Assembly (NCBI GenBank): GCA_009380095.1
Contig: WHSL01000007.1
Location: 1 to 59,971 of the forward strand
Direction: 5' to 3'
From: Streptosporangiales bacterium
Lineage (GTDB): Bacteria > Actinomycetota > Actinomycetes > Streptosporangiales > Streptosporangiaceae
Length of the DNA stretch: 59,971 nucleotides
The notes below the pieces were generated by a model. It had not been told where the DNA came from. It searched no databases and worked only from the letters and a program-made list of their open reading frames with translations. This document shows positions 6,553-55,727 of this stretch, piece after piece; position 1 is the first letter of the stretch, and every line of letters begins with the position of its first letter. A program made the translations under genes and the position numbers.

Positions 6553-6583
6553 GCATCCTCCTCGTGGCCGTGGCCGCCGAGTC

Positions 6584-9087: not shown

Positions 9088-9644
9088 CGGCCCGGCTCCG
9101 GCCTGATCTCCAGCAGCGGCTGGCCGAACTCGACGAACTCCTCGTTGGCGGCCAAGATCCGCACCACCTCGCCGCGGACTCCGGCCGGGACGGCGTTGAA
9201 CATCTTCATCAGCTCGATCAGCCCGACCGTGTCCTCCTCCCCGACCCGGCCGCCGACCTCGACGTACGGCGGCGCCCCAGGTTCGGGGGCCGTGAAGAAC
9301 ACCCCGACCACCGGCGCCGTCACGGTCACCACCTCGCCCCCGGCCGCGGCGGCGGAGCCGGCAGGGGGCCCCGGCTCCGCCGCCGGGCTCGCCTCGGACG
9401 CGTCCGCCCGCGACCCGGTGGCTCCAGACGCGGCGGGGGCGGGAGGCGCTGGGTCGGGGGCGGCAGGAGCAGACCGTGTCGCGTCGGGCGCCGAGGGCGT
9501 GGCGGCCGGGGGCGTACTGCGGCCGTGGCCGGTGCGGTCGGCGATCAGGTGCAGGTCGCCGAGGCGGAGCTCGAGGTACTCGATGTCCTCGTGCCCGTCC
9601 ACCAGGTCCAAGATCAGCCGGACATCGTCGTGGGTCAGGTCCAT
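9084..9644 (-). CDS. accB: Biotin carboxyl carrier protein
   Basis: A 186-residue biotin carrier. The C-terminal biotinyl domain (about residues 105-186) contains ELMKMFN with Lys147 as the biotin-accepting lysine; the usual alanine before Met is leucine here. The N-terminal helix resembles the AccB oligomerisation region and is joined by a long Ala/Pro-rich linker (residues 40-103) that lets the biotin arm swing between subunits. It overlaps the carboxyltransferase gene by 10 bases and the biotin carboxylase by 4, implying coupled translation. Confidence 0.92.
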   Translation of the reverse strand: MDLTHDDVRLILDLVDGHEDIEYLELRLGDLHLIADRTGHGRSTPPAATPSAPDATRSAPAAPDPAPPAPAASGATGSRADASEASPAAEPGPPAGSAAAAGGEVVTVTAPVVGVFFTAPEPGAPPYVEVGGRVGEEDTVGLIELMKMFNAVPAGVRGEVVRILAANEEFVEFGQPLLEIRPEPGR

Positions 9645-38639: not shown

Positions 38640-39707
38640 ATGGCCAGCCGGACCACGACCAAGGTGACCCACTACCACGTGCAGAAGAAGCGGCGCGCGG
38701 AGTTCCTGGAGAACTGGCGGGCCAATCGGCGTACGGTCGTCACGGCCGACGACGTCACGCTCCACCCCAGCGAGCGCGGCCACCGGATCGGTGCGTACGT
38801 CGGCACCGACGGCGACCGGCCGACCCGCACGATGGACGCCATGGTGCACGAGTTCGACCCGGGCACCTCGACCACGATCCATCGGCACAGCTGGGACGCG
38901 ATGGTGTTCGTCGTCGGCGGCTGGGGCTGGACCGAGATCGACGGCGAGCGGATCGACTGGGGCCCGGGCGACTCGATGCACCTGCCGGCCTGGTCCTGGC
39001 ACCGCTCCGGCAACGACGGCGAGGGCACGGCGCGGTACCTGACGTTCTCCAGCGAGCCGATGATGGACACGATGGGCATGTCGGTGCTGGAGGACGCCGG
39101 TGACGCCGACGTCTCCACCCTCCCCGCACGTCCCGCCTACACCGACACGATGACCGGCGACGACCCGTACGCCCGCCGGATCCGCCGCCTCGGCCGCGAA
39201 CAGCGCGCCCGCCGCGGCGGCCGGCTCCACACCAGCTGGGACGATCTCGAGCTGCTCATCACCCCGCGGGGCACCCGGACGACGTTCCTGCTCGACCGGG
39301 CCATCGGCTACCAGGCCTCGGGCATCACGATGGCCATGTTCGAGATCGCGCCGGGCCGCGCGCAGTCGATGCACCGTCACCCCGGCGAGGCCTGGCTGTA
39401 CGTCGTCGAGGGCAGCGGCCACAGCTACCTCGGCACCGAGCCGGAGGGCGGCGAGAAGCACCCTTGGAAGAAGGGCGACCTGATCATCGTCGACCACTTC
39501 CTCTGGCACCAGCACCTGAACGACAACCCGGACCAGACCGCCAAGGTGGTCCGGATCCACATGTTCGACAGCCTGCTGGAGACGATGCGGGTGCTGACCG
39601 ACCCACTGGTGCTGTTCGAGGAGCCGCCGGACCACATCCGCGACGCTCAGGCCGGCGACCCGACCACGGTCGACTGGCCGGAGGTCGTCCGGCCGACCTG
39701 GCCGTGA
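38640..39707 (+). CDS. Double-cupin protein (gentisate dioxygenase-like), both metal sites intact
   Basis: A 355-residue bicupin. N-terminal cupin: TTIHRHSWDAMVFVVGG (His81, His83, Asp86) with WSWHRSGN; C-terminal cupin: MHRHPGEAWLYVVEG with FLWHQHLND. Its paralog at 21282 has kept only the second site. GAGGAGG precedes the ATG. The stop overlaps the GTG of a TRIP13-like AAA ATPase gene by four bases, so the two proteins are likely made together. A ring-cleaving dioxygenase role is plausible from fold and context. Confidence 0.82.
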   Translation: MASRTTTKVTHYHVQKKRRAEFLENWRANRRTVVTADDVTLHPSERGHRIGAYVGTDGDRPTRTMDAMVHEFDPGTSTTIHRHSWDAMVFVVGGWGWTEIDGERIDWGPGDSMHLPAWSWHRSGNDGEGTARYLTFSSEPMMDTMGMSVLEDAGDADVSTLPARPAYTDTMTGDDPYARRIRRLGREQRARRGGRLHTSWDDLELLITPRGTRTTFLLDRAIGYQASGITMAMFEIAPGRAQSMHRHPGEAWLYVVEGSGHSYLGTEPEGGEKHPWKKGDLIIVDHFLWHQHLNDNPDQTAKVVRIHMFDSLLETMRVLTDPLVLFEEPPDHIRDAQAGDPTTVDWPEVVRPTWP

Positions 39708-40612
39708 GCACCACGGGCACGGTACGCCTCCCGCCGGGGGTCACGGGTGTGCACGCGCTGCCGGCCGACCACCACGATGGGCCGTGGGACTCGATCATCA
39801 CGCCTCCCGGCCTGAAGGAACGGCTGCTGGGTCAGGCCACCCTGCTGTTGCGCCACGGCCGGCGGCTGCAGCAGCTGTCCGGCGCGCCACACGGGCTGGT
39901 GGTGCTCGCCGGCCCCCCGGGCACGGGGAAGACCACGCTCTGTCAGGGGCTCGCCCAGGTGGTGGCCCTGGCCCTGGCGCGACGCGGCGCGACGACGTTC
40001 GTCGAGGTCGACCCGCACGCGTTCCCCAGCGAGATGCTCGGCGAGAGCCAGCGGGCCGTACGGGAGCTGTTCACCGAGACCCTGCCCGAGCTCGCCCAGC
40101 GCAGGCCGCACACGATCGTCCTGATCGACGAGATCGAGGCCCTGGCGGTACGCCGGAGCGCGGCGGCGTTCGAGACCAACCCGGTCGATGTGCACCGGGC
40201 GACGGACGCCGCGCTCTCCGGCCTCGACGAGCTCCGCGTGTCCTCCCCCAACCTGCTGATGCTGACGACCACGAACTTCATGCCGGCACTCGACGAGGCA
40301 TTCCTCTCCCGTGCCGACCTGGTCGTGGAGACGGCGCTGCCGGACGAGGACGTGATCGCCGGCATCATCCGCGGATCGCTGACCGAGCTCGCCGTCCAGT
40401 GGCCCGGCCTGCGGCCGCTGGCCGGTGACGCCGGTCTGCACGGCAAGCTCGCCGCCCGGTGCGCCGGATTCGACGGCCGGAAGGTGCGCAAGGCGATCCT
40501 TTCGGCCCTGGCGCAACGCCCGGACCTCGCCGAAGACCCCGAACGCCTCACCGCCGAGGACCTCGTGAGCGCGGTCGCCACCGCGGCCGAAGGCCCGCGC
40601 GTCGGCACGTGA
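39704..40612 (+). CDS. TRIP13/Pch2-like AAA+ ATPase
   Basis: A 302-residue single-domain AAA+ ATPase. Walker A GPPGTGKTTL at about residues 70-79, a TRIP13-like stretch in which VEVDPHAFPSEMLGES takes the place of the SHSLFSKWFSES region, Walker B LIDEIEALAVRRSA near 139-152, then VLTT-type sensor LMLTTTN and the AFLSRADLV segment that closely parallels AFVDRADIK of TRIP13. Bacterial Pch2-like proteins are best known beside HORMA proteins in CBASS defence, but no HORMA or nucleotidyltransferase gene is present. The coupling to a double cupin (GTGA overlap) suggests remodelling of that enzyme. Family call from remembered motifs, not a search. Confidence 0.8.
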   Translation: MSTTGTVRLPPGVTGVHALPADHHDGPWDSIITPPGLKERLLGQATLLLRHGRRLQQLSGAPHGLVVLAGPPGTGKTTLCQGLAQVVALALARRGATTFVEVDPHAFPSEMLGESQRAVRELFTETLPELAQRRPHTIVLIDEIEALAVRRSAAAFETNPVDVHRATDAALSGLDELRVSSPNLLMLTTTNFMPALDEAFLSRADLVVETALPDEDVIAGIIRGSLTELAVQWPGLRPLAGDAGLHGKLAARCAGFDGRKVRKAILSALAQRPDLAEDPERLTAEDLVSAVATAAEGPRVGT

Positions 40613-42788: not shown

Positions 42789-42798
42789 CGTCAGACCA
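42789..42798 (-). promoter_or_regulatory. Operator half-site TGGTCTGACG upstream of decarboxylase-like gene 1
   Basis: Read on the minus strand, TGGTCTGACG lies 26 bases upstream of the start at 42763, overlapping the stop codon of the reductase gene, and is followed by a TACCAAT half-site. The same TGGTCTGACG string recurs at 55901. Confidence 0.4.
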
Positions 42799-44047
42799 CA
42801 TCTGTGTCCACGATGAGCGACTTCAACGGCACCGTCTCGTCGCCGGCCGCGCCGGCGCGGATGGTGGCGCCGGCGGCCAGCGCCTTGCGGACCGCCATGT
42901 AGTCGGCCGGGCGGTTGACGGCGTCGATGGCCAGCAGTCGATCTCCCCGGTAGTAGAGCACGGAGAAGCGCTCGGTCTCCGGGTCGCCGCGTACGACGCA
43001 CTCCTCGTACCCGGCGTTCAGGCCGGCGATCTGCAGCTTGAGGTCGCCCTGGTCGGACCAGAACCACGGCACCGCGGTCGTGTCGCCGTACCGGCCGAGC
43101 AGGCCGGCCGCGGCCACCCGGGCCTGGGCGATGGCGTTCTGCACGGACTCGACGCGGATGCGGCCGTTGGCGGCGAGCGGGTGTGGCTGCACCGTACAGT
43201 CGCCGGCGGCGACCACCGACCGTTCGCTGGTGCGGGCGTAACCGTCGACGACGATCCCACCGGCGCAGTCCAGGCCGAGCTGCTCGGCCAGCTCGGTCCG
43301 CGGCACCGCGCCGATCCCGATGAGGACCAGGTCGGCGGGGAGCGACCGGCCGTCCTTGAGCCCGACGCCGGCGACCCGGCCGTCGCACCCGGTGAAGCCG
43401 GCGACCTCCGCGGAGAGCAGCACCGTGCTGCCCCGCCTGTTGTGCGCGGCCCGGTAGAACTCCGAGATCACGGGCGCCACCGCCCGGGAGAGCAGCCGGC
43501 CGGCCGCCTCGACGACGGTGACCGACTTGCCCATGGCCCGCGCCACGGCTGCCGTCTCCAGGCCGATGAACCCGCCGCCCACGATCACCACCTCGCGGGC
43601 CTCCTCCAGGCGGGCGCGGAGCCGGCCGGCATCACCGAGATCCCGGAGATAGACGACCCCGTCAAGGCCGTCGTGCGGAACCGGGAGCCGGGCCGGGCTC
43701 GCCCCGACGGTGAGGGCCAGCTGGTCGAAGGCGAGCGTGCGACCGGCCGCGGTGGTGGCGACGCCCGACCCCGGAGGACCGGACGGGGAGAGCGCGACCC
43801 GCGTGATCCGCTCGCCGGTCAGCAGGTCGATGCCGGCCTCCCGGTAAAAGCCGGGCGCCCGCAGCGCCAGGCCCTCGGTGTCCTGCTCGCCGGTGAGGAA
43901 CGTCTTGGAGAGCGGGGGCCGCTGGTACGGCGGATGCTCCTCCTCGCCTGCCAGGGTGACCGCGCCGTCGTATCCGAGGTCGCGCAACGACACCGCCAGC
44001 TGCAGACCCGCCTGACTGGCGCCCACGATCAGCGTCCGACCGCCCAT
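42791..44047 (-). CDS. FAD-dependent NAD(P)H:ferredoxin reductase
   Basis: A 418-residue flavoprotein of the putidaredoxin-reductase type. FAD-binding TLIVGASQAGLQLA at the N terminus, NAD-binding VVIVGGGFIGLETAAVARA near residue 150, GIGAVPRTEL and VVAAGDCTVQ are in the expected order, and PPYQRPPLSK is characteristic of oxygenase-coupled reductases. The ATG at 44047 follows CGGAG at five bases. It is divergent from the ferredoxin and Rieske oxygenase genes, completing a three-component electron chain. Confidence 0.92.
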   Translation of the reverse strand: MGGRTLIVGASQAGLQLAVSLRDLGYDGAVTLAGEEEHPPYQRPPLSKTFLTGEQDTEGLALRAPGFYREAGIDLLTGERITRVALSPSGPPGSGVATTAAGRTLAFDQLALTVGASPARLPVPHDGLDGVVYLRDLGDAGRLRARLEEAREVVIVGGGFIGLETAAVARAMGKSVTVVEAAGRLLSRAVAPVISEFYRAAHNRRGSTVLLSAEVAGFTGCDGRVAGVGLKDGRSLPADLVLIGIGAVPRTELAEQLGLDCAGGIVVDGYARTSERSVVAAGDCTVQPHPLAANGRIRVESVQNAIAQARVAAAGLLGRYGDTTAVPWFWSDQGDLKLQIAGLNAGYEECVVRGDPETERFSVLYYRGDRLLAIDAVNRPADYMAVRKALAAGATIRAGAAGDETVPLKSLIVDTDVV

Positions 44048-44075
44048 GACCACTCCGAGAAGTCCTATCGATCAA

Positions 44076-44205: not shown

Positions 44206-44529
44206 TTGTCCAAGGTGATCTACATCGACAGCACCGGCCGTAGGTACACCGTCGACGCGACGGTCGGCGAGACGGTCATGGCCACCGCGGTCAAGAACGG
44301 CGTACCGGGGATCATCGCCGAGTGCGGCGGGAACTGTTCGTGCGCGACCTGCCACGTCTGGGTGGCCGGGGAGTTCGCCCCGCTGGTGGGCGGCCCCGGC
44401 GACATGGAGGACGACCTGCTCGACATGGGGGTCTCCGAGCGGCGGGACACCAGCCGACTCTCCTGTCAGATCCGCGTCACCGAAGACCTCGACGGCCTGA
44501 CGGTGGAGATCCCACCGGAGCAGCCGTGA
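44206..44529 (+). CDS. Putidaredoxin-type [2Fe-2S] ferredoxin
   Basis: A 107-residue plant/vertebrate-type ferredoxin. The cluster ligands are in CGGNCSCATCHVW (C-x5-C-x2-C, with one extra Cys inside) and LSCQI near the C terminus. It should carry electrons from the divergent FAD reductase to the downstream Rieske oxygenase. The TTG at 44206 is the best start (AAGGGA about nine bases upstream); longer frames add an unrelated tail. Confidence 0.9.
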   Translation: MSKVIYIDSTGRRYTVDATVGETVMATAVKNGVPGIIAECGGNCSCATCHVWVAGEFAPLVGGPGDMEDDLLDMGVSERRDTSRLSCQIRVTEDLDGLTVEIPPEQP

Positions 44530-44585: not shown

Positions 44586-44612
44586 CTGGAGGAAGGGGTA
44601 AGGCAGTGCTGA
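44529..44612 (+). CDS. Possible 27-codon leader ORF overlapping the Rieske start
   Basis: ATG at 44529 overlaps the ferredoxin TGA (TGATG), reads through the tandem repeats as MRTAV-MRTAM-MRTAM-IRAAL and ends with TGA at 44610, past the GTG start of the oxygenase at 44606. It could keep ribosomes moving from ferredoxin to oxygenase. It may equally be non-coding; there is no homology to recognise. Confidence 0.35.
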   Translation: MRTAVMRTAMMRTAMIRAALEEGVRQC

Positions 44613-45892
44613 GGCGGGACATCAACGAGTTCTTGACACAGACCGGTCCCGGGACGCCGATGGGCGAACTGTTCCGGCAGTACTGGCTCCCGGCGCTACA
44701 CGTCGAGGAGTTGCCGGAGAACGACTGCCCACCCGTGCGGGTGAAGCTGCTGTCCGAGCGGATGATCGCCTTCCGCGACAGCCAGGGGCGGTACGGCCTG
44801 ATCGATGAGTTCTGTGCGCACCGCGGCGCGTCCCTGTGGTTCGGGCGGAACGAGGAGTCGGGCCTGCGCTGCTCGTACCACGGCTGGAAGTACGACGTCA
44901 CCGGCCAGTGCCTGGAGGTGCCGTCGGAGGAGGGCAACAGCAACTTCTGCGAGAACGTGAAGCTGACCTCCTACCCCCTGGTCAAGGTCGGCGACCTGCT
45001 CTGGACGTACATGGGCGACCCGGCCCGCAGGCCCGGCCTGCCCGAGTTCGAGTTCCTGCAGGTCCCGCCGGAGCAGACCTACACCTCCAAGCGGTGGCAG
45101 CAGTGCAACTGGCTGCAGGCGTTCGAGGGCGGGATCGACTCGAGCCACGTCACGTTCCTGCACTCCGGCGGGCTGAAGAACGACCCGCTTTTCAAGGGCG
45201 CGAAGGGCAACGAGTACAACCTGAACGACACCAAGCCGTTCTTCGAGGTCGCGGACAGCGAGGGTGGCCTGTTCGTGGGCGCCCGCCGCAACGCCGAGGA
45301 GGGCAAGTACTACTGGCGCATCACGCCGTGGGTGATGCCCGCGTTCACGATGGTGCCGCCCCGCGGTGACCATCCGGTGCACGGCCACTTCTGGGTGCCG
45401 ATCGATGACGAGAACTGCTGGACGTACTCCTTCGACTACCACCCGGTCCGCGCGCTCACCGAGACCGAGCGGCAGGCGATGCTCGACGGGCACGGCGTCC
45501 ACAGCAAGAACATCCCGGGCACCTACCGTCCCGCCGCGAACATGGACAACGACTACCTGATGGACCGCGGGGCGCAGAGGCGCGGTGAGACCTACTCCGG
45601 GATCGCCGGCATCGCCATGCAGGACGCCTCGCTGCAGGAGAGCATGGGCCCGATCGTGGACCGCAGCAAGGAACGGCTCGTACCGGCCGACAGCGGGATC
45701 ATCAAGGCCCGGCAGAAGCTGCGCAAGGCCGCGGTCGCGCTGCGGGACGAGGGCGTGACGCCGCCCGGTGTGGACCCGGAGCACCACAAGGTGCGTTCGG
45801 CGGCGGTCGTGCTGCCGCAGGCCGAGTCGTTCCTGGCCTCCAGCCGCGACGCGGTGACGGTGACACCCGGCACTCCGCAGGCGTCGATCTGA
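44606..45892 (+). CDS. Rieske non-heme iron oxygenase, phthalate 4,5-dioxygenase-like
   Basis: A 428-residue ring-hydroxylating oxygenase. The Rieske cluster is bound by Cys70/His72 and Cys89/His92 (FCAHRGA, CSYHGWK). The mononuclear iron site is in GGIDSSHVTFLHSG with Asp178, His181 and His186. The N terminus (TGPGTPMGELFRQYWLPALH) is typical of the phthalate dioxygenase group, which works on aromatic carboxylates as a homo-oligomer without a beta subunit. GTG start with GGAGGAAGGGG upstream. With the ferredoxin and the divergent reductase it makes a complete three-component system. Confidence 0.92.
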   Translation: MLRRDINEFLTQTGPGTPMGELFRQYWLPALHVEELPENDCPPVRVKLLSERMIAFRDSQGRYGLIDEFCAHRGASLWFGRNEESGLRCSYHGWKYDVTGQCLEVPSEEGNSNFCENVKLTSYPLVKVGDLLWTYMGDPARRPGLPEFEFLQVPPEQTYTSKRWQQCNWLQAFEGGIDSSHVTFLHSGGLKNDPLFKGAKGNEYNLNDTKPFFEVADSEGGLFVGARRNAEEGKYYWRITPWVMPAFTMVPPRGDHPVHGHFWVPIDDENCWTYSFDYHPVRALTETERQAMLDGHGVHSKNIPGTYRPAANMDNDYLMDRGAQRRGETYSGIAGIAMQDASLQESMGPIVDRSKERLVPADSGIIKARQKLRKAAVALRDEGVTPPGVDPEHHKVRSAAVVLPQAESFLASSRDAVTVTPGTPQASI

Positions 45893-45893
45893 G

Positions 45894-46400
45894 ATGGCGT
45901 ACATGTCGCCGTTCCCCAGCGAGTCGGCCTGGGCCGCCTCCGCGGGCGAGGCGCGCTACCGCATCGACGGCACCATCGTCTCCGCCCGAAACGCGCGCGT
46001 CATCGCGCTGGACGAGCGGGCCGCGTCGGTCGCGCGCCGGGTCGCGGACGGCCCCTGGGCGCAGGCCGGGTTCTTCACCTGCGAGAACAGCGGTCCGGCA
46101 GGAGACGGGGACGAGATCGCGCTGCGCGGGCTCGATGGCGTGCCCAGCACGCTGGCGGGCCTCTTGGCCACCGATCCCGACGTCGTGGTCGTCCTCGCGA
46201 CCGACGACACCGGGCGTGCCCAGGCGGCCGCGATCGGCCGTGCCTGCGGCGCCCGCGCCATCATGACGGCCGGGGTCGTGCTCGGCGACGGCTTCGAGGC
46301 CGATGACGCCGTCGCCGCGCTCCGCCCGTACGCCCGGGTGCTGCTGCTGTCCGCGGACGAGAGTGACGTGTTCGAACTGCTCACCGCACTGCGGGTCTGA
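45894..46400 (+). CDS. Hypothetical protein, 168 residues
   Basis: Not recognised. It begins one base after the Rieske stop codon and has no signal peptide or membrane segment. The second half has an alternating pattern, DVVVVLATDDTGRAQAAAIGRACGARA then IMTAGVVLGDG and ARVLLLSADESD, that looks like a Rossmann-type sheet/helix repeat. Being inside the oxygenase operon between the oxygenase and a PanB-like gene it probably serves the pathway, but I assign no function. Confidence 0.7.
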   Translation: MAYMSPFPSESAWAASAGEARYRIDGTIVSARNARVIALDERAASVARRVADGPWAQAGFFTCENSGPAGDGDEIALRGLDGVPSTLAGLLATDPDVVVVLATDDTGRAQAAAIGRACGARAIMTAGVVLGDGFEADDAVAALRPYARVLLLSADESDVFELLTALRV

Positions 46401-46416: not shown

Positions 46417-47250
46417 ATGCCGGGAAAGGTGACGCTCAACGCGCTCCAGGAGATGAAGAACGGCGGGCGCAAGATCGTCGGTGTGGTGGCCTGGGACTAT
46501 CAGATGGCCCGGATCGCCGACCGGGCGGGCGTGGAGCTGGTCTCGGTCGGCGACACCGTCGGCGTGAACCTGTGGGGTGACCCGAATCCGTTCGAGATCA
46601 CGATGGACCAGATGGTCCTGGTCACGCGGGCGGTGCGGCGCGGAGTGAGCCGGGCGCTGCTCAGCGCCGACTTCCCGTTCGGCCCCCTCCAGGAAGGCAC
46701 GGGGAGCGCCGTACGGGCGGCCATCCGGTTCGTCAAGGAGGCCGGGGTCGACATGGTCAAGCTCGACGGGGCCCCGGACTTCCTCGACGCCGTCACGGCG
46801 ATCACGCGAGCGGGGATCCCGGTGTTCGCACAGTTCGGGATCACGCCGCAGACCGCACTGCGGTACGGGGTCGAGTACCGCGCGGTCCCGTCCAGCGCCG
46901 ACCAGGTGCCGGTGGAGATGATGGACGCGCTGGTCGACGAGGCCAAGCGGCTGGAGGGCGCGGGCGCCGCGCTGCTCAACTTCACCAACTCCGGGCCGGT
47001 CGTGGGCGCGGCCGTCGCGGAGGCGGTGTCCATCCCGGTCGTCGGGGGCTTCGGCGGCGGCCCGTGGCTGGACGGCCGGATGCGGATGGCGCACGCGGCG
47101 ATCGGCTACGCCGCGTCGGCCATCGACGATCCCCCCGACACCTACGCCAATGTCGCGCGGGTGGCGCTGGACGCGCTGAGCTCGTACGCCGAGGACGTAC
47201 GGGCCGCTCGCCAGATCGCGGGGGGCATCCCCGTACCGCCGGAAAACTGA
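46417..47250 (+). CDS. PanB-like (ketopantoate hydroxymethyltransferase superfamily) TIM-barrel protein
   Basis: A 277-residue protein matching PanB in layout: VGVVAWDYQMARIADRAGVE, SVGDTVG (Asp46), LSADFPFG (Asp85) and MVKLDG (Lys115, Asp117) correspond to the metal and substrate ligands. The catalytic glutamate of PanB (VLE in the family) is Asn188 in LLNFTNSGP. It is therefore unlikely to make ketopantoate; a retro-aldol or C-C lyase step on a 2-oxo acid is possible. GAGAGGAGG precedes the ATG at 46417. Confidence 0.75.
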   Translation: MPGKVTLNALQEMKNGGRKIVGVVAWDYQMARIADRAGVELVSVGDTVGVNLWGDPNPFEITMDQMVLVTRAVRRGVSRALLSADFPFGPLQEGTGSAVRAAIRFVKEAGVDMVKLDGAPDFLDAVTAITRAGIPVFAQFGITPQTALRYGVEYRAVPSSADQVPVEMMDALVDEAKRLEGAGAALLNFTNSGPVVGAAVAEAVSIPVVGGFGGGPWLDGRMRMAHAAIGYAASAIDDPPDTYANVARVALDALSSYAEDVRAARQIAGGIPVPPEN

Positions 47251-47283: not shown

Positions 47284-48132
47284 ATGCCCATCGCCCATGC
47301 CGACGGGATTCCGACCCGGTACGAGGTGATCGGCTCAGGCCCACCGCTGTTGCTGTTCTCCCCCGGGGGATTCGACTCCGTCCAGGAGAACTGGCGGGAG
47401 CTGGGGATCTACCGGCGCCTGCGGCTACTCGACCACCTCAGCGAGTCCTACACCTGCATCACCTTCGATCGGCGGGAGGCGGGCGAGTCCGGCGGGCGGC
47501 TGGAGCGGCTCTCCTGGGACGGGTACGCGGCGCAGGGGGCCGGGCTCCTCGATCATCTGGGCTTCGAGCGGGCGCATCTGATGGGCGGGTGCGCGGGCTG
47601 CTCCACCGTGGCGGCGTTCGCGGTGGCCCGTCCCGAACGGGCGCTGAGCATGGTGCTGTTCTCGCCGGCCGGCGGCGTGAAATACCGCATGAAGCAGCAC
47701 GACCGCTTCGCCCGGCACCTTGCCTACGTGGACGAGCACGGCCTGGACGGGGCGGTGGCGCTGGCGCAAGGCTCAGACCAGGGCTTCTCCAAGGATCCGC
47801 GGGTCGGTCCGTGGGCTCCGGTGCTCCGCAATGACGCCGCGTTCGCCGAGGCGTACGCCGGGACGGACGCCGGCCGCTACCGCATCCTGGTCGACGGTAT
47901 CGCGCGGTTGCTGTACGACCGCGACACCGTCCCGGGTGCGGAACCCGAAGATCTCCTGCGGCTGGACATCCCCGCGCTCATCGTCCCGGGTGAGGACGAC
48001 TCGCACGCGCCCTCGGCCGCCCGCTATCTCCAGGAATGCCTTCCGCAGGCGGAGTACTGGGATGTCCCGGTGGCCGGGCAGACCGAGTCGACGGCCCCCG
48101 CCGAAGTGTTGCGCTTCCTGGACAAGGCATAG
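47284..48132 (+). CDS. Alpha/beta-hydrolase fold protein with cysteine nucleophile elbow
   Basis: A 282-residue alpha/beta hydrolase. The oxyanion region is LLFSPGG and the nucleophile elbow reads GGCAGC, placing Cys103 where Ser normally stands. The acidic residue is in VPGEDDSH, but the usual His motif near the C terminus (GH) is GQTES with Gln266. Relatives in aromatic pathways hydrolyse ring-fission products (for example N-formylmaleamate deformylase or meta-cleavage product hydrolases). Because two triad residues differ, the activity is uncertain. AAGGAGAG precedes the ATG. Confidence 0.8.
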   Translation: MPIAHADGIPTRYEVIGSGPPLLLFSPGGFDSVQENWRELGIYRRLRLLDHLSESYTCITFDRREAGESGGRLERLSWDGYAAQGAGLLDHLGFERAHLMGGCAGCSTVAAFAVARPERALSMVLFSPAGGVKYRMKQHDRFARHLAYVDEHGLDGAVALAQGSDQGFSKDPRVGPWAPVLRNDAAFAEAYAGTDAGRYRILVDGIARLLYDRDTVPGAEPEDLLRLDIPALIVPGEDDSHAPSAARYLQECLPQAEYWDVPVAGQTESTAPAEVLRFLDKA

Positions 48133-48175: not shown

Positions 48176-49303
48176 ATGGCGGAGCAGGTGCTGGCCGCGG
48201 TCAGGACCGGACCGGGCACGACCGAGATGCGCGAGTTCCCGGTGCCGGACATTCCCGACGACGGCGCCCTGCTCAGGGTGGAGGTCGCCGGGATCTGCGG
48301 TACGGACGTCAAGATGTACGCCAAGCCCCCGTTCACCGATCCGGTGATCATGGGCCACGAGAACGTCGGGGTCATCGCCAAGGCGGGCCGCGCCTTCACG
48401 GAGCGCAAGGGCCTGGCCGAAGGCGACCGTGTCTTCGTCGAGCATTACGTCGGCTGTTTCCGCTGCGCGTGGTGCCACGCCGGCGAATATCGGCACTGCG
48501 AGCTGACCGACTGGCGCACCAACCCCGACGCCCGCCGCTACGGGTACACCTCCGCGGACAAGCCGTACCACCTGTGGGGCGGCTTCTCGCAGTACCTCTA
48601 CCTGCCGTGGAACTCGGTGACCCACCACGTCCCCGACGGCGTCTCCGCGGAGCTGGCCGGGCTGGTGACGCCGCTGTCCAACGGCATCGAGTGGGCGCTG
48701 GTCACCGCCGAGGTCGGGTACGCCTCGACCGTCCTCATCCAGGGTCCGGGGCAGCAGGGGTTGTCCCAGGTCGTCGCGTGCAAGCAGGCAGGCGCGTCGC
48801 TCATCATCGTCACCGGCACGACACGGGACGCGGCGCGGCTCGCCCTGGCGCGGCAGCTCGGCGCCGATCACGTCATCGACGTCACGCACGAGGACGCCCT
48901 CGAACGCGTACGGGAGATCACCGGCGGGCGCGGAGTCGATGTCGTCCTCGACTGCACCTCTGGCGCCGGCACCGCCCCGGTCCTGCTCGGCGTCGACGCG
49001 CTCAAGCGGCGCGAGGGCACGATGGTCGTCCAGGGTGAGCTCGCAGCCTTCCCCGACTTCCCGCTGAAGAAGATCACGGAGAAGTCGATCAGCGTGAAGA
49101 GCGCCCGCGGCCACAGCTACCGCTCCTGCGAGCTCGCCCTCGAGCAGCTCGCGTCCGGCCGGTTCCCGCTGGAGAAGCTGAGCACGCACGCGTTCGGGCT
49201 GAGTGACGCCGACCGCGCCATCCGTACGGTGGGCGGCGAAGGGGCCGAAGACGTCATCCACGTGTCGCTGCTGCCCTGGTCCGAAACAGCGCAGGAGGCG
49301 TGA
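48176..49303 (+). CDS. Zinc-dependent medium-chain alcohol dehydrogenase
   Basis: A 375-residue MDR alcohol dehydrogenase. Catalytic zinc ligands in AGICGTD and GHENVG; structural zinc in CFRCAWCHAGEYRHC (four cysteines); NAD-binding QGPGQQGLSQ. A strong GAGGAGG precedes the ATG at 48176; the upstream open frame is a shadow of the hydrolase gene. It probably oxidises a hydroxy intermediate, for example a ring diol or semialdehyde precursor. Confidence 0.92.
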   Translation: MAEQVLAAVRTGPGTTEMREFPVPDIPDDGALLRVEVAGICGTDVKMYAKPPFTDPVIMGHENVGVIAKAGRAFTERKGLAEGDRVFVEHYVGCFRCAWCHAGEYRHCELTDWRTNPDARRYGYTSADKPYHLWGGFSQYLYLPWNSVTHHVPDGVSAELAGLVTPLSNGIEWALVTAEVGYASTVLIQGPGQQGLSQVVACKQAGASLIIVTGTTRDAARLALARQLGADHVIDVTHEDALERVREITGGRGVDVVLDCTSGAGTAPVLLGVDALKRREGTMVVQGELAAFPDFPLKKITEKSISVKSARGHSYRSCELALEQLASGRFPLEKLSTHAFGLSDADRAIRTVGGEGAEDVIHVSLLPWSETAQEA

Positions 49304-49992
49304 TGGGCACCGTCGTACGCAACCCGCCCCGCGCCGGCAAGGAGACGGTCGACGCGCTCGGCCGGTACGGGGTGGCCACCGTCCATGAGGCGCAGGGACG
49401 TACGGGACTACTCGCCTCCGCCCTGCGTCCCGTCTACCCCCGCGCGCACATCGCGGGCACCGCGGTCACGGTGAGCGTTCCGCCGGGCGACAACTGGATG
49501 ATCCATGTCGCCGTGGAACAGTGCCGGGAGGGCGATGTCCTGGTGGTCGCGCCCACGTCACCCTCGGAGGCCGGCTACTTCGGCGAGCTGCTGGCCACCT
49601 CGGTGGCCGCGCGCGGTGTACGGGGCGCGGTCATCGACGCGGGCTGCCGCGACATCACCGAGCTCCAGCGGATGGGGTTCCCAGTGTGGGCGCGGCACGT
49701 CTGCGCGTTCGGGACTGTGAAGGAGACCCTCGGCGACGTCAACCTCGGCCTTGTCTGCGCCGGCCAGCGGATCGATCCGGGAGATGTGATCATCGCCGAT
49801 GACGACGGGGTCGTGGTCGTCCCGCGCACCCGGGCTCAGGAGATCGCCGTCGCGGCGGAGAAGCGCGAAGAGCGGGAGGCGGCGCTGCGCGAACGGTACG
49901 CCGGCGGTGAACTCGGCCTCGACGTCAACGACATGCGTGAGCGCCTGGCGAGCAAGGGGCTCACCTATGTCGACCGAACGCCGGGCGAGTGA
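49303..49992 (+). CDS. ligK: 4-carboxy-4-hydroxy-2-oxoadipate aldolase/RraA-like protein
   Basis: A 229-residue class II aldolase of the LigK/GalC/RraA family, normal length. TVHEAQGRTGLLASALRPVY, the GDVLVVAP stretch, GCRDITELQRMGFPVWAR and PGDVIIADDDGVVVVP are diagnostic; the Arg-Asp pair in GCRD binds metal and substrate. It splits 4-carboxy-4-hydroxy-2-oxoadipate to pyruvate and oxaloacetate in protocatechuate 4,5-cleavage. ATG at 49303 (TGATG overlap) with AGGAGG five bases upstream. The next gene is the preceding step of that pathway, which strengthens the call. Confidence 0.88.
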   Translation: MGTVVRNPPRAGKETVDALGRYGVATVHEAQGRTGLLASALRPVYPRAHIAGTAVTVSVPPGDNWMIHVAVEQCREGDVLVVAPTSPSEAGYFGELLATSVAARGVRGAVIDAGCRDITELQRMGFPVWARHVCAFGTVKETLGDVNLGLVCAGQRIDPGDVIIADDDGVVVVPRTRAQEIAVAAEKREEREAALRERYAGGELGLDVNDMRERLASKGLTYVDRTPGE

Positions 49993-49999
49993 GGGTAAC

Positions 50000-51022
50000 A
50001 TGATCATTGATTGCCATGGCCACTACACCACCAGCCCGCCTCAGCACGGGACCTTCCGCCAGGCCCAGCTGGCACGGCTGGAGGACCCCTCCCTTTCCGC
50101 ACCCGAGCCGCCCGCCATCTCCGACGACGCGATCCGCGAGAGCGTGGAGAGCAACCAGCTGAGGGTTCTGCGCGAACGCGGCGGCGACCTGATGATCTTT
50201 TCGCCGCAGGCGTCCGCGATGGCGCACCACGTGCCCGATCCGGCCACGGCCCGCGTGTGGGCGCGGGTGAACAACGACCTCATCCACCGGGTGATCGAGC
50301 TGTTCCCGCAGCGGTTCGCGGGGGTCTGCCAGCTTCCACAGACGCCCGGCGGCTCCCTCGACGACTCGGTGGCCGAGCTCCGCCGGTGCGTACGTGAGCT
50401 GGGCTTCGTCGGGTGCAACCTCAACCCCGACCCCTCCGGCGGCCACTGGACGTCGCCGCCGCTCACCGACCCGTACTGGTTCCCGCTGTACGAGACGATG
50501 GTGGAGCTGGACGTCCCGGCGATGATCCACGTCTCGACGTCATGCAACTCCAGCTTCCACACCCTCGGAGCGCACTACCTCAACGCCGACACCTCGGTGT
50601 TCATGCAGTTCGTCCAGGACGACCTGTTCGACCGGTTCCCGGCCCTGCGATTCGTCATCCCGCACGGCGGCGGTGCGGTTCCCTTCCACTGGGGGCGCTA
50701 CCGGGGCCTCGCCAACCGGATGGGACGACCGGATCCGACGGCGCTGCTGGGGAGCAACGTCTTCTTCGACACCTGCGTCTACCACCAGCCCGGCATCGAC
50801 CTGCTCTGCCAGGTCATGGGGAGCGACGGTCTGCTGTTCGCGTCGGAGATGCTGGGCGCGGTGCGCGGCGACAACCCCGAGACCGGCCGCGGCTGGGACG
50901 ACACCAAGGCCTATCTGGACGCCGCCGGGCTCTCCGACGAGGACCGCCACAAGATCTTCGAGGGCAACACCCGGCGCGTCTACCCCCTCCTGGACGCGCG
51001 ACTGACCTCGGAAGGACACTGA
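50000..51022 (+). CDS. ligJ: 4-oxalomesaconate hydratase-like amidohydrolase
   Basis: A 340-residue amidohydrolase-superfamily protein of the LigJ type. MIIDCHGHYTT at the N terminus holds the HxH metal pair, AMIHVSTS and FVIPHGGGAVPFH carry further histidines, and LLFASEMLG stands in the usual final-Asp region, with Glu replacing Asp as in LigJ-type hydratases. LigJ hydrates 4-oxalomesaconate to the substrate of LigK, the gene just upstream. ATG at 50000 seven bases after the LigK stop. Confidence 0.85.
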   Translation: MIIDCHGHYTTSPPQHGTFRQAQLARLEDPSLSAPEPPAISDDAIRESVESNQLRVLRERGGDLMIFSPQASAMAHHVPDPATARVWARVNNDLIHRVIELFPQRFAGVCQLPQTPGGSLDDSVAELRRCVRELGFVGCNLNPDPSGGHWTSPPLTDPYWFPLYETMVELDVPAMIHVSTSCNSSFHTLGAHYLNADTSVFMQFVQDDLFDRFPALRFVIPHGGGAVPFHWGRYRGLANRMGRPDPTALLGSNVFFDTCVYHQPGIDLLCQVMGSDGLLFASEMLGAVRGDNPETGRGWDDTKAYLDAAGLSDEDRHKIFEGNTRRVYPLLDARLTSEGH

Positions 51023-51024: not shown

Positions 51025-52026
51025 ATGGCCCCGCTCCATCTCACCTTCGCGTGCGGCGACTACGACCGGACGCGCGCGCTGAGCGAGGGGACGATCCGCC
51101 CCGACGGCATCGATCTGACCTATCTCCGGCTGCCGGTGGAGGAGACCTTCTTCCGCATGATGCGCCACCAGGAGTTCGAGGTGGCGGAGCTGTCGCTCTC
51201 GTCCTACGTCCTGTCACTGGACAGAGCCGTCCAGGGAGGGTCGCCGTTCGTGGCGCTGCCGGTGTTCCCGTCCCGCATGTTCCGGCACGGGTCGCTCTAC
51301 TGCCACCGCGACGCGGGCATCTCCGCGCCTGAGGACCTGCGCGGCAAGGTGGTCGGCAGCCCGGAGTACCAGCTCACGGCGTGCGTGTGGGTGCGCGGCA
51401 TCCTCGGTGACCGGCACGGCGTACCGTTCGACTCCGTCGAGTACCGCACGGGCGGGCAGGAGACGCCCGGCCGCATCGAGAAGGCGGGCGTCGAGCTGCC
51501 GGAGTCGGTACGGATCAGCCCCATTCCCGACGGCAGGACGCTCGCGTCCATGCTGGCCGAGGGCGAGATCGACGCCCTGTGCACGCCGCGCGTCCCCGGC
51601 CCCTTCGTCGCGGGCGACCCCCGCGTACGGCGGGTGTTCCCCGATGTGGTCGCCGCCGAGAAGGAGTACTACGCGGCGACCGGCATCTTCCCGATCATGC
51701 ACGTCGTCGTGGTCCGGCGCGACGTCTACGACCGCCATCCGTGGGTCGCCCAGTCGCTCTACAAAGCACTGCTGGCGGCGAAGGACGAGGCGTACGCCCG
51801 CGTCTACGACACCTCCGCGCTGCGGTTCATGCTCCCCTGGCTGATCCCGCAGCTCGAGGAGGCGCGGGAACTCATGGGTGACGACTACTGGTCGTACGGG
51901 CTCGATCGCAATCGCACGACGCTTGCCACCTTCCTCCGCTACCACCACGAGCAGGGCCTGTCCGCACGGCTGTGGACGCCCGAGGAGCTCTTCGCCCCCG
52001 AGTCGCTGGAGTCGGCGGTCATCTGA
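51025..52026 (+). CDS. 4,5-dihydroxyphthalate decarboxylase-like protein 2
   Basis: A 333-residue cytosolic protein strongly resembling 4,5-dihydroxyphthalate decarboxylase: LTFACGDYDRTRALSEG, IRPDGIDLTYLRLPVEETFF, RMMRHQEFEVAELSLSSYV and IFPIMHVVVVRRDVY. The enzyme converts 4,5-dihydroxyphthalate to protocatechuate, which fits the phthalate-type oxygenase, LigJ and LigK in the same unit. AAGGACA precedes the ATG at 51025. Final gene of the long rightward unit before an operator-controlled cupin. Confidence 0.85.
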   Translation: MAPLHLTFACGDYDRTRALSEGTIRPDGIDLTYLRLPVEETFFRMMRHQEFEVAELSLSSYVLSLDRAVQGGSPFVALPVFPSRMFRHGSLYCHRDAGISAPEDLRGKVVGSPEYQLTACVWVRGILGDRHGVPFDSVEYRTGGQETPGRIEKAGVELPESVRISPIPDGRTLASMLAEGEIDALCTPRVPGPFVAGDPRVRRVFPDVVAAEKEYYAATGIFPIMHVVVVRRDVYDRHPWVAQSLYKALLAAKDEAYARVYDTSALRFMLPWLIPQLEEARELMGDDYWSYGLDRNRTTLATFLRYHHEQGLSARLWTPEELFAPESLESAVI

Positions 52027-52092: not shown

Positions 52093-53211
52093 ATGGCCGA
52101 CCGCACAGCGCTCGTCAAGGACGAACTGGCCGCGAAGTTCAGCACCGAGAAGGACTCCCCCTACACCCGCTGGGTGGCCGCGGAGGGTCTGGACATCATC
52201 GCCGCCCACTACGTCCCGGACCTGCGCACGGTCGAGCTCAAGCCGTGGGAGCGGCGCGGCGGGCGCGGCGTGTTCATCAACCACGAGGCCACCCGTACCT
52301 CCAACGACTGCTATGTCTGCGAGATCCCGCCGGGCGGCAGCCTGGCGCCGCAACGGCAGCTGTTCGAGGAGATGATCCTGGTCCTGGACGGGCGGGGCTC
52401 CACCCGGGTCTGGAACGACGCCGGGGCAGCGGTCTCCTTCGAGTGGCAGGCCGGCTCCATCTTCGCCATCCCGCTCAACACCCACCACCAGCACTTCAAC
52501 GGATCGGGGCGCAACGCGGCCCGCTTCGTCGCCTCCACCAACCTGCCGCTTGTCCTCAACCTCTACGACGACGCGGACTTCGTGTTCGACACCCCCCGGG
52601 ACTTCCCGGGCCGGTTCGACGGCGAGCCCGACTACTTCTCGCCCAAGGGCGAGCAGAAGGGGCTGCTCCTGGACACCAACTTCGTCGCGGACGCGGCCAA
52701 CCTGCCGCTGGTCTCGGCGAAGGAGCGCGGCGCCGGCGGCGGGCACATCCGCTTCTCGATGGCCAAGGGCTCGATGAACAGCCACATCTCCCAGTTCCCC
52801 GTGGCCACGTACAAGAAGGGGCACCGGCACGGCCCGGGCGCCCACGTCATCATCCTGACGGGCACCGGCTACAGCCTGATGTGGCCCGAGGGTGAGGAGC
52901 CGCGGCACTACGAATGGGGTCCCGGCACGTTGATCGTCCCGCCGAACATGTGGTTCCACCAGCACTTCAACACCGGTCCCGAGCCCGCCCGCTACCTGGC
53001 GTTCAAGCACGAGGGGGTGGCGGTCCGCAACGCGCAGGGCGTACCTAAGGCGTGGATCAGCAGGCGCATCGGCGGCGACCAGATCGACTACGCCGACGAG
53101 TCGGCATTCGTCCGTGACACCTTCCGCAAAGCCCTGGCCGACCACGGCCTCGAACCTCGGATGGACGAGGCGTACGCCGCCGAGCTCGAGACGCTGCCGC
53201 CCCAGTCGTGA
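52093..53211 (+). CDS. Bicupin protein with active C-terminal metal site
   Basis: A 372-residue two-cupin protein. The N-terminal cupin has lost the HxH ligands (LAPQRQLFEEMILVLDG) though NTHHQHFNG remains; the C-terminal cupin is complete (KKGHRHGPGAHVIILTGTG, MWFHQHFNTG). GGAGG lies seven bases upstream of the ATG. Its stop overlaps the GTG of the EutA-like gene. A mononuclear-metal oxygenase or isomerase role is likely; it is more distant from the pair at 21282/38640. Confidence 0.8.
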   Translation: MADRTALVKDELAAKFSTEKDSPYTRWVAAEGLDIIAAHYVPDLRTVELKPWERRGGRGVFINHEATRTSNDCYVCEIPPGGSLAPQRQLFEEMILVLDGRGSTRVWNDAGAAVSFEWQAGSIFAIPLNTHHQHFNGSGRNAARFVASTNLPLVLNLYDDADFVFDTPRDFPGRFDGEPDYFSPKGEQKGLLLDTNFVADAANLPLVSAKERGAGGGHIRFSMAKGSMNSHISQFPVATYKKGHRHGPGAHVIILTGTGYSLMWPEGEEPRHYEWGPGTLIVPPNMWFHQHFNTGPEPARYLAFKHEGVAVRNAQGVPKAWISRRIGGDQIDYADESAFVRDTFRKALADHGLEPRMDEAYAAELETLPPQS

Positions 53212-54779
53212 CGCCATCCGGCCCGGCCCACGGACACGAGCATGACGTCCACGAGCGCGTCGTCCACTCGGCGTACGTCCCCGACCACGAGCACGATCAC
53301 GACACCGAGCCGGTGGGCCCGATCGAGGACAACCCGATCTGGCGGCAGGACAACGTCACGCTGGACAGCGTCGGCATCGACATCGGATCGTCCGGCACGC
53401 AGGTGATCTTCTCCCGCCTCCGCCTGCGCCGCATCGGCGAGAGCCTGACCACCCGTTACATCGTCGTCCACCGCGAGACCCGGTACCGCTCGCCGGTCGC
53501 GCTCACCCCGTACGCGAGCGCCGGGTACATCGACGCGGAGGCGCTGGGCACGATCGTCGACCGGGCCTACGGCGCTGCCGCCGTCCGCCCGTCCGAGATC
53601 GACACCGGGGTGGTGATCCTCACCGGTGAGGCGCTGCGCCGCCGCAACGCCGAGGCCATCGCGACCGTTCTCGCCGAGCGCGGGGGCGACCTGGTGACCG
53701 CGACGGCGGGCCACAACATGGAGGCGATGCTCGCCGCCTACGGTTCGGGGGCGGCGCAGTCCTCGTACGACACGGGGCGGCGCATCCTCAACATCGACAT
53801 CGGTGGCGGGACCACCAAGCTGGCGGTGGTGGAGCACGGCAGGCCCGTAACGACCTCCGCGCTCGACATCGGCGGCCGGCTGCTGGTCGTGGATGACGAC
53901 ACGCTGGTCCGCCTCGATCCGGCGGGGCGCCGGCACGCGGCCCGCGCCGGGTACGGGTGGGAGCCCGGCGACCTCGTCCGCCCCGCGGAGCTGGCCAAGG
54001 TCACCGAGACGATGGCGGACGCGCTCGTGGCAGCTCTCACCGCCCGCCCACTCCCCCGCGACCTGGCCGAGCTCTACCTCACCGAGCCGCTGGCGGAGAC
54101 GGGCCCGATCGAGGGCGTCATGTTCTCGGGCGGGGTCGCCGAGTACGTCTACGGCAGGGAGGAACGGGGATTCGGCGACCTCGGCCGTGGGCTCGGGCGG
54201 GCGCTGCGCCGACGGGCCGACTCCGGGGCGCTGCCGTTCCCGCTGCTGCCGCCGGGCGAGTGCATCCGCGCCACCGCGCTCGGCGCATCCGAGTACAGCG
54301 TCCAGCTCAGCGGGAACACCGGCTGCATCACCGACCCCGACGCGCTGCTGCCCCGTCGCAATCTGCAGGTCGTACGGCCGGACCACCGGCCCGGCGAGAA
54401 GGTGGAGGCGGCGCAGGTCGCCACCGCGATCCGCGATCGCCTCGTCGCGCTCGACGCCGATCTGTCCGGCGGGGACATCGTCCTGGCCATGTCGTGGGAG
54501 GGGCCGCCCAGCTACGACCGGCTCCTCCCTTTCGCACTCGGCATCCGGGACGGCCTGGCCCGCCGGATCGCCCGTGGCCGGCCGGTCTACGTCATCCTTG
54601 ACGGGGACGTCGCCATGACGCTCGGCGGGCTGCTCCGCGAGGAGCTCGTCGTCGGCGCCGAGCTCCTGGTCATCGACGGCCTCAGCCTGCGGGACTTCGA
54701 ATACGTCGACATCGGCCGTGTCCGGTACCCGTCCGGGACGGTACCGGTCACGATCAAGTCGCTCATCTTCGGCGCGTGA
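53208..54779 (+). CDS. EutA-like ASKHA ATPase (reactivating-factor family) with His-rich N terminus
   Basis: A 523-residue protein matching ethanolamine ammonia-lyase reactivase EutA along its length: VGIDIGSSGTQVIFSRL at residues 55-71, VILTGEALRRRNA, ILNIDIGGGTTKLAV, MFSGGVAEY and a C-terminal YVDIG..PSGTVPVTIKSL. EutA uses ATP to free inactive cobalamin from its lyase. No EutB/EutC gene is present. Unlike EutA, the first 32 residues contain eight histidines (HGHEHDVH and DHEHDHD), a metal-binding look. GTG start overlaps the cupin stop (GTGA), so the cupin is the likely client. Confidence 0.85.
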   Translation: MTPSGPAHGHEHDVHERVVHSAYVPDHEHDHDTEPVGPIEDNPIWRQDNVTLDSVGIDIGSSGTQVIFSRLRLRRIGESLTTRYIVVHRETRYRSPVALTPYASAGYIDAEALGTIVDRAYGAAAVRPSEIDTGVVILTGEALRRRNAEAIATVLAERGGDLVTATAGHNMEAMLAAYGSGAAQSSYDTGRRILNIDIGGGTTKLAVVEHGRPVTTSALDIGGRLLVVDDDTLVRLDPAGRRHAARAGYGWEPGDLVRPAELAKVTETMADALVAALTARPLPRDLAELYLTEPLAETGPIEGVMFSGGVAEYVYGREERGFGDLGRGLGRALRRRADSGALPFPLLPPGECIRATALGASEYSVQLSGNTGCITDPDALLPRRNLQVVRPDHRPGEKVEAAQVATAIRDRLVALDADLSGGDIVLAMSWEGPPSYDRLLPFALGIRDGLARRIARGRPVYVILDGDVAMTLGGLLREELVVGAELLVIDGLSLRDFEYVDIGRVRYPSGTVPVTIKSLIFGA

Positions 54780-54788: not shown

Positions 54789-54952
54789 AGAGGCTCCGCC
54801 AAATGAGGGGCGCGTAGCGAGCGGCGTCCAGGTGGTGCCATGGCGGCGTCGCCGAAGCGAGGGCAGCCTGGTTGTGCTGTTGAGCTGCGGCGGGTCCGCC
54901 AGGGCGCCGCCTGGGCGCCGCGCAGTAGCGCCCCTCATTTGGCGGAGCCTCT
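54789..54952. repeat. Hairpin repeat copy 2 with enlarged loop
   Basis: Left arm 54789-54813 begins AGAGGCTCCGCCAAATGAGG and its exact complement is at 54928-54952, a perfect 25-pair stem. The 114-base loop starts GTAGCGAGCGGCGTCCA like copy 1, then carries about 94 extra bases with smaller GC hairpins before AGTA. The right arm runs into the GntR stop codon. It separates the convergent EutA-like and GntR genes. Confidence 0.85.
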
Positions 54953-55727
54953 AAGTGGGCTCCCCCGTCTTCTCCACGTCCGCTTGCTCCGTGAGCCGGT
55001 CGGCGGTGCGCTGTAGATGGCGGGTCATGATGGCGCGGGCCCGCTCGAGGTCTCGGCCCTCGATCGCCTCGACCAGCTCGTAATGCTCGTGCGCGCCGCG
55101 CGCGCCCATCAGGGGGGCGGCGACCTGCGCCTGATGGAGCGACATCAGCAGAGGGCCGTGGAAGCTCTGCACCAGCATCTCGATCGCCGGGTTATGCGTG
55201 GACGAAGCGACCCGCACGTGGAACTGCGCGGACATGGCCATGCTGTACGAGCCGCCCTCCAGCGCATCCAGGCCCTGCTCGACCAGGGCGCGGAGCTCCG
55301 CGATGTCCTCTTCGGTGGAGCGCTCGACCACCAGCGGCAGGATGCCCAGCTCGAAGATCATACGGGCCTCGGTGACGTCGCCGCCGGTCATCGGCGCCAG
55401 TGTCATGAGCTCGGCGAGCCCTTCCCCCACCCGCCCGCTGGAGGGCTTGGTGACGAAGGCGCCGCCGCGGGCGCCGACGCGGATCTCCACCAGACCACCG
55501 GCCTCCAGGACGCGCAGCGCCTCGCGGACCGTCACCCGGCTGACCCCGAACCGCTCGCACAGGCTGCGCTCGCTGGGCAGCCGGTCGCCGGGGACGAGCT
55601 TGCCCTCCCTGATCAGCGCCCGCATCTGCTCGACGATCACCTCGGAGATGCGGCCGACGCTGACCGGCCTGAACAGGTCCGCGGTGCTCTTGTCGCCGGT
55701 CGCCTCCCTTGGCGGTCCTGCTCCCAT
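54951..55727 (-). CDS. GntR-family regulator, FadR/FCD subfamily, copy 2
   Basis: A 258-residue regulator paralogous to the one at 36800. Winged helix with LPSERSLCERFGVSRVTVREALRVLEA; FCD domain with the metal-type histidines in AQFHVRVASSTHN, HEHYELVEAI and MTRHLQ. ATG at 55727 follows GGAGGAT; the TTG at 55790 lies inside the operator. A perfect operator 52 bases upstream points to autoregulation. It is a prime candidate for control of the window-wide TGGT-N3-ACCA regulon. Confidence 0.92.
   Translation of the reverse strand: MGAGPPREATGDKSTADLFRPVSVGRISEVIVEQMRALIREGKLVPGDRLPSERSLCERFGVSRVTVREALRVLEAGGLVEIRVGARGGAFVTKPSSGRVGEGLAELMTLAPMTGGDVTEARMIFELGILPLVVERSTEEDIAELRALVEQGLDALEGGSYSMAMSAQFHVRVASSTHNPAIEMLVQSFHGPLLMSLHQAQVAAPLMGARGAHEHYELVEAIEGRDLERARAIMTRHLQRTADRLTEQADVEKTGEPT

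Follow-up and report, generated by a model that had tools for sequence, protein, structure and literature searches.

The window analysed here, a whole stretch of 59,971 nucleotides from a Streptosporangiales bacterium (assembly GCA_009380095.1, contig WHSL01000007.1, positions 1 to 59,971 of the forward strand), carries at 52093–54779 two genes, one for a bicupin and one for a protein related to EutA, the reactivase of ethanolamine ammonia-lyase. To our knowledge, the only role described for EutA-type reactivases is the repair of a single B12 enzyme. We lean, with modest confidence, towards the reading that this EutA-family ASKHA (actin/Hsp70-fold) ATPase serves catabolic cupins by loading or reactivating their metal, which may be nickel, and that its client would be a metal cupin, not ethanolamine ammonia-lyase. 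Observed are the gene pair itself, its conservation, co-occurrence and co-evolution, a histidine-rich tail on the ATPase and nickel genes near relatives.

The gene of the bicupin, the proposed client, occupies 52093..53211 on the forward strand (a further in-frame GTG lies upstream at 52087), and its product matches the Pfam families Cupin_2 and Cupin_1. Its stop overlaps the GTG start of the full-length EutA-like gene (53208..54779, forward strand) by the four bases GTGA, which confirms the gene order read in the initial annotation. The alignment to EutA over the whole length, made there by eye, is borne out by the Pfam profile: PF06277 covers residues 52–521 of the EutA-like protein (profile positions 3–474 of 475) with 365 bits against a gathering cut-off of 27. 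Nevertheless, the protein stays below the cut-offs of all four NCBIfam EutA equivalogs (NF007991–NF007994), scoring 288, 251, 213 and 188 bits against 598, 769, 952 and 799, respectively. The sequences GIDIGSSGTQ (53373..53402, forward strand) and DIGGGT (53796..53813, forward strand), which we take to be the phosphate-1 and phosphate-2 motifs of the ASKHA superfamily, are conserved across 20 aligned EutA rows, the second being invariant in them. Pfam gives EutA and weak ASKHA families only, and no G3E GTPase domain of the HypB/UreG type. The AlphaFold model (predicted local distance difference test, pLDDT, 68.5) has its best Foldseek matches among Ppx/GppA, MreB, PilM and dehydratase activators, with low template-modelling (TM) scores, and a PDB sequence search with the EutA alignment gave remote matches only (MreB).

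Two kinds of EutA can be told apart by score, by gene neighbourhood and by phylogeny. Across 296 genomes from the phylum of the window, the scores of full-length EutA matches form two classes. Where EutA exceeds 500 bits (G172, G151, G129, G226 and G039), EutB directly adjoins it; genomes with a full-length EutA at 299–399 bits (G183, G009, G135, G075 and G000, the window genome) gave no match to EutB. Likewise, EutB is missing from 16 of the 18 tested genomes with a cupin-linked EutA, including the window genome, which is 97% complete and in which the EutA search found a single EutA. The initial statement that neither EutBC nor another B12 enzyme accompanies the gene holds for EutB in this genome, and also in the window, where no B12-enzyme family was recognised among the Pfam matches of 52 of the 53 genes (24332–25357 was unscanned). 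In a tree of 71 ATPase cores, from which the tail was excluded and 17 loci (near copies and one partial) were left out, 11 EutBC-linked rows are split from the 60 others by a branch with 100% support in the Shimodaira–Hasegawa-like approximate likelihood ratio test. The window protein stands apart from the EutBC-linked EutAs in clade A, 29 rows with the same 100% support; being without an outside root, the tree gives no order of clients. The initial annotation had named an adjacent B12-dependent lyase in other genomes as a sign against a new client, and EutB was found to adjoin EutA only in the separate EutBC clade.

The change of client to a cupin, put forward in that annotation as a hypothesis, has strong support from the adjacency of the two genes, their co-occurrence across genomes and their co-evolution. 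The neighbourhood analysis of EutA homologues proposed there was carried out on 85 full-length EutA rows from genomes and plasmid records (rows under 1300 bases being dropped), 77 of them non-EutBC and eight EutBC-linked. A cupin lies within 1.5 kb of EutA in 73 of the 77 non-EutBC rows and in none of the eight EutBC-linked rows. By type, this holds for 37/37 rows of type A (the window's type, defined by NPIW or NPLW in the tail linker), 16/17 of type B, 13/15 of type C and 7/8 of the others; one of the four exceptions, L007, is at a contig edge. The position of the cupin relative to EutA varies, being before, after or divergent. In the window's order (297 genomes), EutA and the cupin were each found in 15 genomes, and these are identical. 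In the alphaproteobacterial class of L020 (385 genomes), EutA was found in 11 genomes and the cupin in the same 11 and in G534, in which a EutA fragment lies beside the cupin at a contig end (L221). These counts are minima and absences could be missed, as the best three EutA and five cupin candidates per genome were scored among the 385 genomes, and the best five and six among the 297. The alphaproteobacterial placement rests on L020 (Rhodospirillales) together with rhizobial plasmids. EutA occurs in 25 plasmid records, and the four that also carry the cupin are the four rhizobial ones; in the other 21, six regions were inspected and all are EutBC operons.

The two partners have also diverged in parallel. 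Over 52 pairs (13 near-copy loci being left out), the matrix of cupin identities correlates with that of EutA identities at a Mantel r of 0.928, a value reached by 0 of 2000 permutations. Four genomes contain two paralogous pairs, and in these cupin and EutA partner by clade: the clade-A cupin is 67–80% identical to the window cupin and 26–31% identical to the other cupin of its own genome. Judged from these sequence comparisons, the cupin–EutA pair has stayed together across phyla. As separate observations, a further EutA, outside the best-candidate counts, stands between two cupins and two Rieske genes (L214 3304–7470, G690), and in two loci from metagenome-assembled genomes (L014 6495–7607 and L023 6689–7602) the cupin frames are split, by real breakage or assembly error.

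The window protein begins with a histidine-rich tail (53208..53303, forward strand; core PDHEHDHD; residues 1–38 with pLDDT below 50 in the AlphaFold model). As initially annotated, its first 32 residues hold eight histidines, whereas the 468 residues that start with the GIDIG motif and run to the C-terminus have five (binomial P about 1e-9). This is unlike EutA proper: in all eight EutBC-linked EutAs examined, the N-terminal extension has just 8–18 residues with 0–1 His. Between tail and ATPase lies the linker EDNPIWRQDNV (53325..53357, forward strand), with nearly invariant alignment columns; it is typical of clade A, and the rows with a linker of this type form one clade in the tree. The initial annotation had made conservation of the tail in close homologues a point to be checked, and H-x-H followed by D or H was found before the NPIW linker in 32 of the 37 type-A loci. 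Type B has shorter HxH tails, in 12/17 rows. PDHEHDHD was one of six peptide patterns by which L002–L023 were found, so these loci are biased towards tailed proteins; the genome-wide EutA searches used the whole protein. Over alignable columns (seven pairs, gap-aware), the ratio of nonsynonymous to synonymous divergence (pN/pS) is 0.34 for the tail and 0.31 for the ATPase core (10 pairs): the tail is translated. A tail value of 0.80 (10 pairs) was discarded as an artefact of unaligned tails shifted by one residue. Three His columns of the tail show 0 nonsynonymous changes in the seven pairs, with both CAC and CAT in use. On these codon comparisons, the HxH core in the tail of the window's clade is conserved under purifying selection. 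The tail may bind metal. Across homologues, for which start codons were set by rule, length and sequence of the tail vary greatly, and the type-A protein of L020 has a second His run at its C-terminus.

The candidate metal site of the client was examined in an alignment of 81 cupins, both with and without linkage to a EutA. Where a EutA is linked, the N-terminal barrel of the cupin is without HxH (APQRQLFEEM in the window cupin). Types A and B have retained both HxH (YKKxHRHGPGAHV in the type to which the window belongs) and HQH (WFHQHFN) in their C-terminal barrel; in the window cupin these are HRHGPGAH, an HxHx4H motif at 52822..52845, and the HQH of motif 2 (H289, Q290 and H291) at 52957..52965, both on the forward strand. 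The window type has His at a position where we take the canonical cupin motif to have Glu. Among 12 aligned type-C cupins, HxH is kept in those of L114, L117, L122, L133, L136 and L189, and both HxH and HQHF occur in all 27 further cupins. Different motifs are found in the remaining bicupins of the window (21282–22253, 37603–38601 and 38640–39707). The AlphaFold model of the cupin (pLDDT 72) gave oxalate decarboxylase, MncA and vicilins as best Foldseek matches at TM < 0.5, which says little beyond 'bicupin', and a PDB sequence search with the cupin alignment gave remote matches only (auxin-binding protein and gentisate dioxygenase).

Several relatives have nickel genes close to the pair. In Phyllobacterium zundukense, the cupin, EutA, a NixA-type transporter (PF03824, 365 bits) and NikR are consecutive; this EutA is of type C, without a His tail. 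In L020, NikR lies at 16742–17215 (PF08753), and about 7 kb separate a NicO transporter gene from a EutA. The tailed EutA of L113, a relative of the window operon, is accompanied by NicO and a CobW-family GTPase, and L110 has a GTPase related to the latter. Six loci share the order UbiD, EutA, NicO, small cupin, and a seventh (L193) has a broken EutA. NicO loci within 10 kb of EutA number 12 of 40, compared with 0.51 expected; the count covers 45 of 53 genomes, eight being unplaceable by contig, the 12 were tallied by hand and the 40 include some below the Pfam cut-off. All genomes with nickel genes near the pair are of L020's class or rhizobial, and in these alphaproteobacterial relatives nickel is the most likely metal. 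Two side observations concern the same regions: L108 (6376–10997) and six similar loci of related genomes contain a conserved block of UbiD decarboxylase, EutA-like ATPase, NicO and two small cupins, and a second cupin–EutA pair of Phyllobacterium (L197 8950–13482) precedes the genes of a LysR regulator and of a TerC-family member with a metal-transporter annotation. Furthermore, ABC permeases, which we would group with ferric-type transporters, are found near several actinobacterial pairs.

Binding of the cupin by the EutA-like protein, use of ATP on it, transfer of a metal ion and the identity of that metal are all inferred. The ATPase core would bind the cupin, and ATP would open or exchange the active site of the C-terminal barrel. 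The disordered His-rich tail would hold an incoming metal ion and hand it over, or capture a released one, and activity would thereby be restored to apo, mis-metallated or oxidatively damaged cupins. On the simplest reading, a cupin would be opened in the same ATP-driven manner, with a metal ion as the cofactor exchanged. A bolder proposal, which we advance tentatively and with more doubt than conviction, is that this constitutes a new class of nucleotide-driven metal insertion, in which a His-tailed ASKHA ATPase, from the same stock as a B12-enzyme reactivase, inserts or renews the nickel of a large, unrecognised family of nickel cupins in aromatic-acid catabolism.

Several observations weigh against a metal-loading ATPase with a cupin client. 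L112, L119 and L181 have no adjacent cupin. EutB is present in G296 and G303, without EutA within 1.5 kb, and would allow a cobalamin client in trans there. The HxH core of the tail is absent in five of the 37 type-A loci (L016, L017, L019, L084 and L129), and an HxH tail occurs in 0/15 rows of type C, a sister clade; both losses weaken the metal role of the tail. It is further weakened by the clients themselves, since six of the 12 aligned type-C cupins (the first of L020, and those of L109, L123, L177, L184 and L185) have lost the C-terminal HxH while keeping HQH or HQS, which makes the metal site doubtful for half of this clade and weakens a universal metal role. Regarding nickel, a single orthologous EutA–NicO tandem accounts for eight of the 12 NicO neighbours, with UbiD beside seven, which leaves four or five independent cases; the CobW neighbours are two loci taken without a background comparison, and NikR is found in 3/53 genomes with EutA-like genes and near the pair in G296 only. 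Neither NicO nor NikR was found in the window genome, and the NicO, NikR and G3E profiles gave no match in the actinobacterial loci; nickel would thus extend to the window pair by relationship only. Support for the metal role initially proposed for the tail is indirect: the conserved HxH, the nickel genes near some homologues and the similar tails of nickel chaperones speak for it, and the missing HxH in tails and cupins speaks against it.

Adjacency, overlapping genes and co-evolution would fit a stable complex equally well. It is therefore conceivable, if in our view unlikely, that the cupin and the EutA-like protein are subunits of one ATP-dependent enzyme, in which the ASKHA subunit would phosphorylate the substrate, the cupin would convert it and the His tail would aid assembly only, presumably in analogy with hydantoinase/acetone-carboxylase-type systems. 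Hydantoinase A/B genes do occur in the window, and L016 and L017 have them close to their pairs; such an enzyme would explain the type-C cupins without HxH. However, the following speaks against it: G412, G518, G608 and G686, in which all EutA candidates were scored, have 3–4 EutAs and at least five cupins, 18 of 20 further cupin loci have no EutA in their flanks (mostly about 3 kb, one ended by a contig end), and the neighbouring cupin of the UbiD group is another, small type. This cupin surplus, the loci without EutA and the small UbiD-group cupin make a shared helper more probable than a fixed enzyme subunit.

A helper of cupins could still carry a tail of another kind, one that binds zinc, iron or copper in order to store or sense it, or one that is a disordered acidic-histidine linker with no metal role. 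The great variability of the tail and its loss in some members would agree with this, as would the ABC permeases near actinobacterial pairs, the TerC-family protein near a Phyllobacterium pair and the profile search that found no nickel gene near the actinobacterial pairs; nevertheless, the HxH core without nonsynonymous change in seven pairs and the nickel genes near the tailed homologues L020 and L113 make us regard this as rather improbable. Lower still do we rate the idea that the EutA-like protein continues to serve a cobalamin enzyme in trans, its adjacency to the cupin reflecting regulation only. Membership of the EutA family and the EutB genes elsewhere in G296 and G303 are in its favour, but the lack of EutB in the other 16 tested genomes (other B12 enzymes being outside the genome-wide search) and the close co-occurrence with the cupin leave it very improbable.

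The pair resembles several known systems, with distinguishable differences. EutA belongs to the same family over its full length, and the window protein keeps its ATP-binding motifs; nevertheless, the latter falls below the equivalog cut-offs, its genome is without EutB, its partner is a cupin and its N-terminal extension is long and, among relatives, often His-rich. The nickel chaperones HypB, UreE, CooJ and HspA are likewise maturation factors with a His-rich segment, although the metal role of the window protein is a predicted one, and it is an ASKHA ATPase, not a G3E GTPase or a protein of UreE or GroES fold, as those chaperones are. In a published table, the His-rich segments hold eight His in 27 residues in HspA, which takes two Ni per monomer, 16/34 in CooJ and 17/32 in HypB (PMC8704837). 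With 8/32, the window tail has a density like that of HspA and below those of CooJ and HypB given there. Bicupins of the gentisate/aminosalicylate dioxygenase type share the two cupin barrels and the catabolic context. However, the window cupin has no HxH in its N-terminal barrel and HxHx4H in its C-terminal one, scores 24.7 bits against a cut-off of 650 with the NCBIfam 5-aminosalicylate dioxygenase model and matches no NCBIfam gentisate model. EutQ, the cupin of eut operons, also stands in a cluster with a EutA-family gene, and is described as without metal-ligand histidines (PMC3483176). We rejected EutQ as the identity of the window cupin, which has no EutQ Pfam match (Cupin_2, Cupin_1 and sub-threshold cupin-fold models only) and keeps its C-terminal His ligands. 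One paper that has both EutA and a cupin was set aside, as it uses EutA for ectoine utilisation (PMC4334477). By title and abstract, no description of the cupin–EutA pair was found in the literature searched, a coverage outside which most subscription papers lie.

The pair follows a run of catabolic genes on the forward strand. This comprises a 2Fe-2S ferredoxin (44206..44529; Pfam), a Rieske oxygenase of the LigXa_C type (44606..45892; Pfam), a 168-residue protein conserved in the cluster (45894..46400; no Pfam or NCBIfam match), a PanB-like protein of the ketopantoate hydroxymethyltransferase family (46417..47250; below the NCBIfam cut-offs), an alpha/beta hydrolase (47284..48132; Pfam), a zinc-type alcohol dehydrogenase (48176..49303; Pfam and NCBIfam), a LigK/PcmE-type 4-carboxy-4-hydroxy-2-oxoadipate aldolase (49303..49992; NCBIfam TIGR02798 and NF006731 above cut-off), an amidohydrolase 2 family protein (50000..51022; Pfam) and a substrate-binding-fold protein with weak SBP-family matches only (51025..52026), which we assume to be 4,5-dihydroxyphthalate-decarboxylase-like. 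On the reverse strand lie a ferredoxin-reductase-like flavoprotein (42791..44053; Pyr_redox_2 and Reductase_C) and, beyond the pair, a GntR/FCD regulator (54951..55727) that clusters by sequence with genes from 12 other EutA loci. The 168-residue protein stands beside the PanB-like gene in 10 loci, the window included, and after the Rieske oxygenase in nine, where in view. The operon around the pair probably encodes an aromatic-acid pathway via 4-carboxy-4-hydroxy-2-oxoadipate, as we presume the route to run. No LigAB-type ring-cleaving enzyme is among the Pfam matches of the scanned window genes, and it is therefore our guess that the window cupin may catalyse ring opening or a related step.

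Elsewhere in the window, a gentisate-dioxygenase-like bicupin gene (38640–39707) overlaps that of an AAA ATPase (39704–40612), the nearest solved relative of which is TRIP13/Pch2 (103 bits); these neighbours recur in L017, L019, L022 and L129, which makes two cupins in this island with an ATPase of their own. At 16543–21226, a 497-residue protein with no recognised function, a CbbQ/NorQ-type AAA ATPase and a sub-threshold von Willebrand factor A (VWA) protein are consecutive, resembling a MoxR-type module without a recognised client. Genes for hydantoinase A/B, biotin carboxylase, biotin carrier, carboxyltransferase, CoA-transferase and amidohydrolase lie at 2729–13150; the top score of the hydantoinase A is to caprolactamase alpha, below the cut-off of that model.

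A sister clade that closely tracks cupins would show the EutA ATPase fold to service other enzymes, perhaps at ordinary metal sites. This would explain the cupin-adjacent genes that are automatically named 'ethanolamine ammonia-lyase reactivating factor', as seen in Phyllobacterium loci. It would also point to an unstudied cupin family, members of which may show no activity when expressed in a foreign host because their helper is missing there. How cupins acquire the right metal is a question that this pair makes directly testable.

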